From Adenophora triphylla var. japonica (taxonomy: Eukaryota > Streptophyta > Magnoliopsida > Asterales > Campanulaceae): a DNA stretch of 64,000 bases. The notes below the pieces were generated by a model that was not told the DNA's origin, did not search any database, and saw only the letters and a list, made by a program, of their open reading frames with translations. Shown here one piece after another: positions 2,121 through 18,245 of this stretch. The stretch spans positions 218,501-282,500 of the forward strand of contig JAFEMH010002497.1 of NCBI GenBank assembly GCA_022495995.1. Direction: 5' to 3'. Each line of letters opens with the position of its first letter. The first letter of the stretch is position 1. Position numbers and translations under genes: made by a program.

Positions 2121-2374
2121 GAAGGTCCGTACAGACCTTCTAGGTAATCCAGAATTTTGGTTTTCCTCGATTTGAGGGAATATGTGGACTTTAAGAAGAT
2201 TCAGCAATGATGGTGTCTGGTTGCAATATGGTCCGTACGGACCAACCTTGCATGCAATAAGGTCCGTACGGACCAACCATGTAGCTGGGTAATTATTACC
2301 TCCGGGATTTGAGGGAATAACTTGGAGTTTAAGGGGATTCAGTAATCATTGTGACAAAGAGGTCCGTACGGACC
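2121..2374. repeat. Four GGTCCGTACGGACC palindromes in Tat-A 3' LTR U3
   Basis: Copies lie at 2124-2137 (one mismatch), 2230-2243, 2261-2274 and 2361-2374. All are upstream of the TATA box in element sense. The 5' LTR holds the same set (17798-17817, 17907-17920, 17938-17951, 18038-18051). The first of these extends to the perfect 20-bp palindrome GAAGGTCCGTACGGACCTTC. Confidence 0.95.
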
Positions 2375-2568
2375 ATATTTGCTTTTCCAATTTCTGAAAA
2401 ATCCCAGAAAATTCCTTTTGTGCTTCTTTGTCCCAGAAAGGTCCCTCCCTTGGTTTGGTTGGGGGTTTTTAAGGGTTTTGAGTGTCACGGGTCTTCGAGA
2501 CTGCGTTTGTGAGTCTGCGGTGTTTCCTGTGTGCTCAGAAGAGGGTGATCTAGATTGGAGTACTTACA

Positions 2569-2589
2569 GAAGCCCCTCAGCGACGTCAC
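2569..2589 (-). other. Tat-A polypurine tract region
   Basis: The minus strand reads GTCGCTGAGGGGCTTC directly before the 3' LTR. The GAGGGGCT core is shared by Tat-B (35608-35623), Tat-C (60308-60323) and Gyp-0 (31017-31030). This is the plus-strand DNA primer position. Confidence 0.8.
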
Positions 2590-2740
2590 TTACGGAGGAA
2601 GTGGGGTCATCGATAAGATAAGGGTCCTAATCTGGATCGCGTGCTGGGAGAGAAAGTGACCGTGTAGGTCGGTGTGTGAGGACATGGCGGTGTCCTGTTG
2701 TGTGACCGTTTAGGTCAGTTGGCTGGACCCTGTGATAGAA

Positions 2741-2783
2741 TTCCTACGTATCCCTAGCGGGAATCAAGCCTGATCGTAGTTCG
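2741..2783 (-). other. Conserved 3' module, LTR-proximal copy 1 (Tat-A)
   Basis: In sense orientation this starts GAACTACGATCAGGCTTGAT and ends with GGATACGTAGGAA, around a short CCC/GGG dyad. Equivalents occur at 3218-3276 here, at 35728-35790 in Tat-B and at 60159-60202 in Tat-C. A related version follows pol or gag in each element. Confidence 0.8.
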
Positions 2784-15459: not shown

Positions 15460-16736
15460 GGGGGAGTAGCGGATGGTGCGGACCGTTGAACTGGAAGGGC
15501 TGTCGGACCTTGTGACCTTGATACTGAAAAGGTGGCTCCCGGGTATTCTCAACCACTCTCGGTTCGCTGGAGGGGGTGACGGGCAAGGTTTAGACACGGG
15601 AAGGCGTTTCGGGATAAGGGGGAAAGCTCACGTGACATGCAGTTTCCGCTTTTTTTTTATTATTGTTGTTTTAATTTACTTAAAACATGTTTTCTCAGAA
15701 TCCTAGGTAGGTTGGAAAAGATTGCTCTTCTTTTTCGCAACTATGCTAGATCCTGGGTCAGTGGAGACCGTCTGTACGGCTATAAGCCCCTCGTTTTGCA
15801 CCTGTATTTCGACATCCCAGGGTGGACAGCCCCGGGCGAGGGTCCTATAGGGCAAGCGGTTTCCACCGGCCTAAAAGAAAAGTCGAACCTAAGGACCGAG
15901 CCTGTCATGTTCGTTTTAATGCGTTAACCATGTGAATAGTGAACCGAGCCGGCCATTGAGTCAAGATCGGGTCAAGAGTTCGGTATGGCCTCTCTTTACA
16001 TTGCTTGCGCAAGGGATCTGTGACGTTAGGCGTTGGCTGGGTCATATCGTCATAGCTGACGTATTAAAGGCTTGATGAAATGGTGTCATGCGAGCATGGA
16101 TGTATATCCGGGACGGAACATCGTCTGGGTGTAGCTTCGGAAAATCAAGATCGGGTCAAGATTTTAGCATGACCTTTCATCGCTTTGCTTGCGCAAGGGA
16201 TCTTGAGTTCCGAGCTTCGACTCAGAAAATGGCCGGCATGGGATATGTATCCAGGCTTGTATGACACGGACTGGGTAAAAACCAACCGAGTCTGGACAAA
16301 GTGTGACTCAAGACTCAAACGTGGAGGGTTGACGCTTGGCTAGGATGGGATGTTTGGAATGATCCCGTGCGCATCCAAGAGGCCTTGGAAGACCAAACGG
16401 ACTGCAACTGAGACCACTCCGGGTAAGGGTTGTAGTGTCCAGTGTATCCGAGGCAGCAATGCGCGTAGCGTGCGGTGTAACCGAGGCAGCAGTGCGAGTA
16501 GTGTGTGGTCTCTAAAATTCTTTTTCTGAGTAAAACATAAGTTTTTTGAAGAATTTTAAATATATGTACACAGATGTATATTGATGCATTTTTGTTACTT
16601 TTTTTTTTTGTAAAATAAAAAGTAAAGCACATGCACACACACACAACAGTTAAAGAAAGGGGTAAAATGAAAGTTTGACCCTCATCATCGTTTTAAAAAT
16701 CTTTTGTTTTTGTTTAAAAGTTTTTAAAACAAAATT
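15460..16736 (-). other. Tat-A 5' leader
   Basis: No supported gene. In sense orientation several segments match the Tat-C leader (47690-48300), including CAAACATCCCATCCTAGCC and CACACTTTGTCC near the middle, in the same order. CTTGCGCAAG palindromes occur near 16007 and 16189. A packaging or dimerisation role would fit the position but is inferred. Confidence 0.7.
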
Positions 16737-16754
16737 TCCCCAGCGGAGTCGCCA
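16737..16754 (-). other. Tat-A primer binding site (tRNA-Arg type)
   Basis: The minus strand reads TGGCGACTCCGCTGGGGA, two bases after the 5' LTR. The same 18 bases are at 47398-47415 in Tat-C. This sequence is typical of Tat/Ogre elements that use an arginine tRNA primer. Confidence 0.9.
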
Positions 16755-16756
16755 AT

Positions 16757-18245
16757 TGAAATTACCCGGGGTCCGTGCTCCGCGCGAATTTTTGCCCCCC
16801 AGCACAATCTCGCATTTTTCGTGCGTTCGCGTTTGGGAAGTTGCCCGAATCCGATAGGCAGCTCAATCGCGCCCCGGCATCTGGCTCGTTCCGTTTTGCG
16901 TGTTGGAGGTGTCTCGCTGTGTTTTGCTTGTAGAGTCGCCACGCCGTTTTTATTAAGCCCAAAACATTGAAAAAGAACATCAGTTTAAAAATAAACTGTT
17001 TTTGTGTGATGAGATTTTTGAGTTCGGAGGTCAGATGACTCCTCGGGAAGATAATATTAGAATATTAGAGCTCACCCGAGTCGCCTCATAAAAACGAGTC
17101 TTTCGGTACCCCTAATATTCTTTAACTATTGTGTGTGTGTGTGCACATGCTTTTAAAAATGCATGCTATGTCGTATGTCTACATTGTACACTGCTTTATT
17201 GAAATGTATTGAAATAGTAATGGAAGGAAGCCTTACCAATGTTGGTTCATGTTTCTCTTCCGCTGGGGAATAGTATTTTAGGATGGAATAGTGTTCCGGT
17301 ACGGACCGGGATTGCTTCGGGATGAGCCGGTTGTCTGCGGACAGAGTTTCGGCGTGCGTTGGATTGTCAGGTGTGCACTCGGGCAGAGGTTCGGCGTGCG
17401 TTGGGATCGCAGGGATCACTCGGGCAGAGGTTCGGCATGCGTTGGGATGGCAAGAGTCACTCGGGCAGAGTTTCGGCGTGCGTTCGAGTTGCCGGTTTGA
17501 CTCGGAAAGAGCCGGGACGCCTCGGGAAAGACCAGGCAAGGCCTCGGAGTACCACGAGGGGCCTCAGAGTACCTCGAGAGTTCCTCGGGGCAGCGTGGGA
17601 GCATCGCGGGAGCGTTCGGAGAGGCTTCGGAGCACCGCAAGGGGGCTCGGAAGGCCTCAGAATGATCCGAAAGGGGCCAGGAGTGCCTTGAGAGGTCTTA
17701 GAGAGGGATCCTGAAGGCTTAGGGAGAGAAGAGAAGAGGGAGGTATGTGAAATGAGGGAGGGGGAGCCCTCTATTTATAGTGCCAAATTTTGTGCAAGAA
17801 GGTCCGTACGGACCTTCTAGGTAATCCAGAATTTTGGTTTTCCTCGATTTGAGGGAATATGTGGACTTTAAGAAGATTCAGCAATGATCGTGTCTGGTTG
17901 CAATAAGGTCCGTACGGACCAACCTTGTATGCAATAAGGTCCGTACGGACCAACCATGTAGCTGGGTAATTATTACCTCTGAGATTTGAGGGAATAACTT
18001 GTACTTTAAGGGGATTCAGTAATCATTGTGACAAAGAGTTCCGTACGGACCATATTTGCTTTTCCAATTTCTGAAAAATCCCTAAAAAGTCCTTTTGTGC
18101 TTCTTTGTCCTAGAAAGGTCCCTCCCTTGGTTTGGTTGGGGGTTTTTGAGGGTTTTGAGTGTCACGGGTCTTCGAGACTGCGTTTGTGAGTCTACGGTGT
18201 TTCTCGTGTGCTCGAAAGAGGGTGATCCAGATTGGGGTACTTACA
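16757..18245 (-). repeat. Tat-A 5' LTR (promoter LTR)
   Basis: 1489 bp against 1485 bp for the 3' LTR, with the same ends. TATA box TATTTATA (minus strand) at 17772-17779. The palindromes at 17798-17817, 17907-17920, 17938-17951 and 18038-18051 lie 19-280 bp upstream of it. This copy would drive the sense RNA. Confidence 0.95.

Follow-up and report, generated by a model that had tools for sequence, protein, structure and literature searches.

What is the function of the antisense accessory genes of Tat, Ogre and Retand retrotransposons, elements that are abundant in some plant genomes? A window of 64,000 nucleotides (64 kb) from Adenophora triphylla var. japonica (contig JAFEMH010002497.1, positions 218,501 to 282,500 of the forward strand), the whole stretch of DNA that was analysed, bears on this question. 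All coordinates are positions in this window, and the sample is small: three Tat families of long terminal repeat (LTR) retrotransposons, here called Tat-A, Tat-B and Tat-C, and one copia-type LTR. In Tat-A, one 14-bp palindrome recurs upstream of the TATA-like box of both LTRs and upstream of two antisense genes, one for a PMD protein and one for a DUF7745-like protein. In Tat-C, a different dyad lies at corresponding places, upstream of the LTR TATA-like box and of an antisense DUF7745-like frame.

One palindrome recurs at the LTRs and antisense genes of Tat-A

The palindrome GGTCCGTACGGACC matched 12 times in the window at ≤2 mismatches, against an expectation of 0.05 (none of 100 shuffles reached 12). 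The original prediction, made from the sequence alone, had listed 12 such occurrences and had argued that a random 14-mer would not recur in this way; the count, every position and the excess over random expectation were all confirmed. Each of the 12 matches lies within Tat-A, either in one of its two U3 regions or directly upstream of its antisense genes. Allowing ≤3 mismatches added three matches, one in the integrase region of another element (39930) and two in the LTRs of Tat-B (45520 and 60766).

Tat-A is a minus-strand element whose 3' LTR (1084-2570) and 5' LTR (16757-18247, both limits being the aligned extent of the pair) contain four sites each, at 21, 127, 158 and 258 bp from a TATA-like octamer (2095-2102 and 17772-17779). 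The dyads described in this report carry no strand assignment. In the 3' LTR, site 1 reads GGTCCGTACAGACC (2124-2137) and the other three sites are perfect (2230-2243, 2261-2274 and 2361-2374). In the 5' LTR, site 1 (17801-17814) is perfect and forms the centre of a 22-bp perfect palindrome, sites 2 and 3 are also perfect (17907-17920 and 17938-17951), and site 4 has one mismatch (18038-18051). A pair of sites stands 167-211 bp upstream of the PMD ATG (4625), at 4414-4427 (two mismatches, both C to T) and 4445-4458 (perfect), and another pair stands 118-162 bp upstream of the DUF7745-like ATG (7990), at 7828-7841 (perfect) and 7859-7872 (one mismatch, C to T). The predicted distances to the two genes, and the placement of the LTR sites upstream of TATA (21-258 bp), were borne out. 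A spacing of 31 bp is common to the inner LTR pair (sites 2 and 3), the PMD pair and the DUF7745-like pair, and 10 of the 12 sites have the left flank TGCAA-N3-GGTCCG.

The 168 bases of the 12 sites contain five mismatches, four of which are C-to-T or G-to-A changes. The two LTRs are identical at 1405 of 1486 aligned positions (81 differ), and the corresponding decay of ~2.7% per copy predicts ~4.6 mismatches. This fit suggests that most or all of the 12 sites were probably perfect when the element inserted. A partial version of the palindrome, CCGGTACGGACCGG, is also found downstream of TATA in both LTRs (1619-1632 and 17296-17309); by eye, its region resembles that of the downstream Tat-C dyads described below.

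To compare the paired sites, we aligned the two-site modules and scored their cores and spacers separately; the Fisher tests presuppose homology of the modules. The 5' LTR and PMD modules are identical at 26/28 core and 9/17 spacer positions (p 0.003), the 3' LTR and PMD modules at 26/28 and 8/17 (p 0.001), and the PMD and DUF7745-like modules at 25/28 and 9/17 (p 0.009). The DUF7745-like module matches either LTR at 27/28 core and 13/17 spacer positions (p 0.06 in both cases). From these alignments, the DUF7745-like pair looks like a copy of the LTR module, and the PMD pair reads as a module in which the spacer has drifted and the core has been kept.

Both antisense genes are on the plus strand between pol and the 3' LTR, where an extra antisense open reading frame with a PMD or Transposase_28 domain is a trait of the Tat lineage; the families matched here are PF10536 and PF24924. 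The PMD gene (4625-7500) has exon pieces at 4625-4792, 5485-6192, 6275-6928 and 7033-7500, inferred from GT-AG signals; PF10536 matched 5485-5814 at 3.8e-11 (above cut-off) and 5818-6192 at 7.5e-7 (below cut-off), and no Pfam family matched the remaining pieces. Its three introns, all with canonical GT-AG boundaries on the antisense strand, suggest that the gene has its own spliced antisense transcript. In this copy, an in-frame stop lies within the second exon piece. The DUF7745-like gene (7990-9142; PF24924 at 2.9e-8 on 8102-9139) is split, and its frame is not kept open from the ATG.

A different dyad lies at corresponding places in Tat-C

The 3' LTR of Tat-C lies on the minus strand at 34134-35608 (approximate limits, the lower one estimated by eye), with a TATA-like octamer at 35262-35269. 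A dyad, GTGTCGCACGACTT (35292-35305), is found 22 bp from this octamer, versus 21 bp for the proximal site of Tat-A, and a second, weaker one, TTGTTGCGTGACAC (35332-35345), lies 62 bp from it. Two further dyads, TGTCGCCCGAC (36922) and TGTCGCACGAC (36957), form an 18-bp tandem repeat (36921-36967) located 141-188 bp before the ATG (37109) of an antisense DUF7745/PMD-like frame on the plus strand (37040-37945). The 14-mer TTGTGTCGCACGAC, contained in the proximal U3 dyad, is exact both in the Tat-C U3 and in the region upstream of the DUF7745-like frame, a match that none of 300 shuffles reached. By contrast, the longest word common to Tat-A and Tat-C is at chance level, both for the U3 (218 of 300 shuffles reach it) and for the region upstream of the DUF7745-like genes (182 of 300).

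The pattern TGTCRCNNGAC is present at eight places in the window (34090, 34111, 34565, 34598, 34632, 35293, 36922 and 36957), six of them in Tat-C and the other two in a related U3 fragment next to it; whole-window block shuffles averaged 0.56 places and never exceeded 3 (100 shuffles), a comparison that is descriptive, as the pattern was picked after the sites had been seen. Among the places are three dyads GTGTCGCRTGACAC inside the Tat-C LTR, at a spacing of 33-34 bp and downstream of its TATA (34564-34644). The adjoining fragment, which aligns well with the Tat-C U3 except in the dyad zone, carries three dyads with a 20-bp spacing (34069-34122). Dyad clusters of the Tat-C type are short tandem repeats of 18, 20 and 33 bp.

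The Tat-C antisense frame is 39-45% identical to its DUF7745-like counterpart in Tat-A. Its Pfam matches are below cut-off (PMD 7.9e-6, DUF7745 0.0013), so that the antisense-frame trait of the Tat lineage rests, in Tat-C, on identity to the Tat-A frame. A search for protein homologues of this frame scored 0 of 1982 candidates. Tat-C has the domain order of the Tat lineage, with reverse transcriptase/RNase H (40740-42236) and RVT_3/RNase H (aRH, 40104-40739) ahead of the integrase. Between Tat-A and Tat-C, the integrases are 75-79% identical and the gag proteins 51%.

Tat-B and a copia-type LTR also carry clustered dyads

Tat-B is a plus-strand element with LTRs at 45077-47395 and 60323-62636 (2296/2313 identical), which we placed in gypsy/Tat by the similarity of its gag to that of Tat-A (56%). 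In its 5' LTR, the dyads AGTCCGGCCGGACT (45425-45438) and GGTCCGGCCGGACT (45520-45533) lie 201 and 106 bp upstream of the TATA-like sequence TGTAAATA (45640); in its 3' LTR, two dyads (60671-60684 and 60766-60779) lie at the same distances, 201 and 106 bp, from the TATA-like sequence TATAAATA (60886). The Tat-B dyads (GTCCGGCCGGAC) have the arms of the Tat-A palindrome with GC in place of TA at the centre. Apart from this, the two U3 regions hardly resemble each other: their best alignment spans only the first 22 bases of the LTR.

We also scanned the window for palindromes independently of these motifs. An unbiased scan, set to near-perfect 14-bp palindromes that recur in clusters, returned 13 pairs versus 1 in 20 shuffles summed, and a relaxed scan with a 12-bp definition returned 20 pairs versus 6 in 20 shuffles summed. 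Chance recurrence of palindromes was rejected: the 12 matches in Tat-A and both scans are far above expectation. The pairs of the unbiased scan fell in the Tat-A U3s and upstream of its DUF7745-like gene, in the Tat-B U3s, in the downstream cluster of the Tat-C LTR, in a copia-type LTR and at one place outside LTRs (19390/19475). The PMD pair of Tat-A was picked up only under the relaxed definition. The relaxed scan also found Tat-B palindromes in tandem arrays and downstream parts, away from recognised promoters (45733, 46758, 57030-57114 and the LTR copies 60979 and 62005). A fixed 31-bp phasing rule was rejected, the spacing being kept in Tat-A only.

The copia-type LTR lies on the minus strand at about 29330-30930, with a TGGTATCAGAGC-type primer site after it. 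The perfect palindrome TGGGCGGTCGCCCA occurs at 29870, 29945 and 30017, upstream of a TATA-like box (29790), each time followed by a weaker copy (about 29893, 29966 and 30040), so that the cluster spans 29870-30053. We infer that a copia-type gag with Pol_BBD on the same strand, at 259-1085, belongs to this LTR, with later insertions between them. Elements with PMD or DUF7745 genes are therefore not alone in having dyads clustered upstream of TATA. Judged by eye, a CG-NN-CG centre flanked by differing arms is common to the best copies of the four LTR families; several Tat-C copies lack it.

The dyad as a proposed family-specific shared operator

Given these positions and counts, we lean towards the view that the dyad is a family-specific shared operator linking transcription from the LTR to that of the antisense genes. 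It would be a cis-regulatory site recognised by one dimeric, sequence-specific factor, through which the LTR promoter on the sense side and the promoters of the antisense accessory genes would get the same regulatory input. The working mode would resemble that of the palindromic repeated-motif (RM) boxes of copia Sireviruses, acting here in Tat/gypsy elements for the antisense genes (PMD and DUF7745-like). The Tat-A sites apparently spread from promoter to promoter by copying of a two-site module (~53 bp); between families, positions would be largely kept while the sequence is replaced. It is this largely conserved placement, combined with the switch in sequence between Tat-A, Tat-B and Tat-C, that favors a shared operator. 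The factor reading the dyad would somewhat more likely be a host factor than an element protein, because copia elements have analogous boxes. The original prediction had proposed such a common operator, and its interpretation was upheld in part: Tat-C repeats the LTR TATA/DUF7745-like arrangement with another palindrome, and Tat-B has the same arms upstream of TATA.

Several observations do not fit this reading easily. The dyads of Tat-A and Tat-B, taken with their flanks, align at a score of 26, within the shuffle range (maximum 27), so that the kinship of the two dyads rests on their arms. Tat-B has dyads but no relative of PMD or DUF7745 by tblastn. The Tat-C dyads at 34564-34644, downstream of the LTR TATA, are away from any recognised promoter, and a simple operator model has no explanation for them; the count of the Tat-C pattern, for the reason given above, adds description rather than a test. 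The core/spacer comparison of the 5' LTR and DUF7745-like modules does not reach 0.05, and spacing at 31 bp is confined to Tat-A. Finally, neither the unbiased nor the relaxed scan found a dyad cluster upstream of a Transposase_28-like frame at 31723. This frame (31723-32754; PF04195, E 0.0011, below cut-off) comes from another Tat remnant and is probably also an antisense gene.

Comparison with known systems

Sirevirus RM boxes are the closest precedent in arrangement. In 13 copia Sireviruses, palindromic RM boxes are clustered upstream of the LTR TATA (PMC2829016). Sireviruses that bear env have extra copies in the linker, 77 of 79 being upstream of env, and four Sireviruses without env lack linker copies. 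The same paper calls RMs Sirevirus-specific and absent from the classic copia elements compared there, reports that no common binding factor was found, and sees the boxes as support for an internal env promoter. Tat-A, Tat-B, Tat-C and the copia-type LTR are similar in that a family-specific palindrome is clustered upstream of the LTR TATA (in Tat-C the cluster consists of two sites, one of them weak). Like Sireviruses, Tat-A and Tat-C also have additional copies before an internal accessory gene, which is PMD or DUF7745-like and antisense here and env there. Counted as in PMC2829016 (3' LTR plus internal copies), Tat-A has eight copies, the Sirevirus minimum. The boxes of the Sireviruses HOPIE (CGGACCGTCCG) and Usier (GTCGGACGTCCGAC) even hold the CGGAC/GTCCG arms of Tat-A, in opposite order. 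However, the Tat elements are not copia: Tat-A and Tat-C are gypsy/Tat by their domains and domain order, and Tat-B by gag similarity. Copies are also few in two of them, with only two per LTR in Tat-B and about seven in total in Tat-C, some of them weak. Boxes described as a Sirevirus feature may thus belong to a wider design of plant LTR promoters, in keeping with the remark that arrays of repeats, at times palindromic, often make up the cis-regulatory regions of transposable elements (PMC10760457).

In naming PMD and DUF7745-like proteins as candidates to bind the palindrome, the original prediction had drawn its analogy from the VANC anti-silencing proteins of VANDAL transposons; it had overlooked the Sireviruses, whose arrangement is the closer parallel. 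VANC proteins target their own family by way of short motifs, and these motifs vary from family to family (PMC5735166, PMC10398659). As in VANDALs, the Tat dyads are short motifs in the non-coding regions of one family, occur in tandem repeats and are replaced by a different motif in related families. VANDALs, however, are Mutator-like elements in which VANC has been shown to bind, whereas the Tat elements are LTR retrotransposons with PMD/DUF7745 frames and few, palindromic, putative binding sites.

Antisense frames themselves are familiar in the Tat lineage. All Retand clusters surveyed in PMC11963269 carry them, and a regulatory role is proposed there; PMD is found in 57% of Ogre elements (PMC6317226), and the accessory gene of maize Grande is said to have its own promoter (a title referenced in PMC11963269). 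Tat-A and Tat-C resemble Retand and Ogre in being of the Tat lineage and in having antisense frames between pol and the 3' LTR. A literature search, which covered mostly titles and the starts of abstracts, found no motif common to the LTR and the antisense promoters of Tat elements. The LTR half of our observation is thus already known from Sireviruses; its extension to the antisense genes of Tat/gypsy elements is new. Among host proteins, the Arabidopsis PMD proteins MAIN and MAIL1 affect genes with the DOWN promoter motif, and the extracts of PMC7156037 and PMC9899485 do not show direct binding. The MORC1 example of that motif, CATGCAGTTT, has TGCA in common with the TGCAA flank of the Tat-A sites, four letters that may match by chance.

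Alternative explanations

The dyad might be read by a protein of the element itself, an idea that we hold as tentative. The antisense DUF7745-like or PMD protein would bind the dyad in both promoters and activate or unsilence its own family, as VANC does; site and protein would co-evolve, which would explain the switch between Tat-A and Tat-C. The dyads do differ between these families at both the LTR and the DUF7745-like promoter, and the DUF7745-like proteins are less similar (39-45%) than the integrases (75-79%), yet gag (51%) is about as diverged. Tat-C-type dyads sit in short tandem repeats, and two related U3s have these in different numbers, as for VANC motifs (PMC5735166), and an antisense regulator is known in HTLV-1, HBZ, which interacts with CREB factors (PMC3736048). 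On the other hand, clustered dyads are also found in the probable copia LTR of the window and in Sireviruses, for which the extract of PMC2829016 mentions no PMD/DUF7745 gene. Tat-B has dyads without a relative of either gene, although service in trans could apply. Pfam recognised no DNA-binding domain in the PMD and DUF7745-like pieces of Tat-A that were searched. The AlphaFold model of the DUF7745-like frame was unusable (mean pLDDT 36.5) and was discarded, and a sequence search of the PDB returned nothing credible (best E 0.47). Even for the host MAIN/MAIL1/PP7L PMD complex, interaction with chromatin is described as not known in the extract of PMC9899485. It is possible, if rather improbable, that Tat elements have their own regulatory system, in which an antisense DUF7745-like/PMD protein reads the dyad both in the LTR and in the promoter of its own gene, with specificities changing together between sister families; if so, LTR retrotransposons would contain a VANC-like, self-recognising circuit.

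Copying without function would account for the likeness of the sites in Tat-A if a two-site module had been moved by template switching recently enough to have remained alike. The LTR and DUF7745-like pairs are indeed alike over the 53-bp module (core 27/28, spacer 13/17) and have the same strand orientation. We find this explanation unlikely: the PMD spacer has drifted (9/17 versus the LTR) while the core between has been kept (26/28, the two differences being C to T), and Tat-C has the same arrangement with a different sequence. It is also doubtful that the dyads are sites of host SBP/SPL-type transcription factors. The Tat-A core CCGTACGG reads CCGTAC(A/G), an SBP cis-element (PMC6508781), on both strands, and CCGTAC and GTACGG are both kept in 11 of 12 Tat-A sites; however, the conserved arms GGT...ACC reach beyond the SBP core, and the dyads of Tat-B (GTCCGGCCGGAC) and Tat-C (TGTCGCNCGAC) have no GTAC. 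An SBP/SPL site alone was rejected as a general answer, the CCGTAC(A/G) core being found in Tat-A and not in the other two. Equally doubtful is an action of the palindromes as RNA or single-strand structures, with paired copies forming hairpins that enter small-RNA silencing or act in some other step at the RNA level. In 6 of 8 segments, paired sites folded better than shuffled sequence (z -2.9 to -7.6), a weak test since any two like palindromes fold together, and the other two, upstream of the Tat-C DUF7745-like frame (z 0.02) and in the copia-type LTR (z -1.43), are not clearly above chance. An excess of small RNAs on the palindrome clusters of maize Sireviruses (Bousios 2016, as told in PMC10760457) would suit such a mechanism, but the sites upstream of TATA fall outside the 5' part of the transcript. 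The shared operator, the reading that we prefer, lends itself to a direct binding or reporter test: a short site common to the LTR and the antisense genes is replaced in a sister family, so that each family can serve as control for the other.

Coding content of the elements and other features

The minus-strand coding stretch of Tat-A (10674-15255) contains gag (13498-15255), a protease-like frame (12187-13497) and an integrase frame (10674-11966). A tblastn search with the Tat-C reverse transcriptase found no reverse transcriptase/RNase H region, and the only trace of aRH is a 44-aa stretch resembling its end. The copy, which has kept gag, the protease-like frame, integrase and both antisense genes, therefore looks non-autonomous. 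Tat-A does not by itself display the domain order of the Tat lineage, and its membership rests on kinship with Tat-C (integrase 75-79% identical). GAGCC is present on both of its outer flanks. Scans of viral contigs found no relatives of the Tat-A integrase or of the DUF7745-like alignment; the exact palindrome matched in 27 stretches of these contigs.

Two long frames on the minus strand of Tat-B had no Pfam match. Tat-A (3421-3518) and Tat-B (55146-55588) have in common an array of 20-bp tandem repeats, 82-88% identical and in sense orientation in both, though the U3s hardly align. Tat-B apparently inserted within the gag of Tat-C (44427-45110 and 62634-64000), and CCACC at both of its ends is a likely target-site duplication. 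The LTR of Tat-C also contains ~14 copies of the telomere-like unit CCCTAAA (34263-34363).

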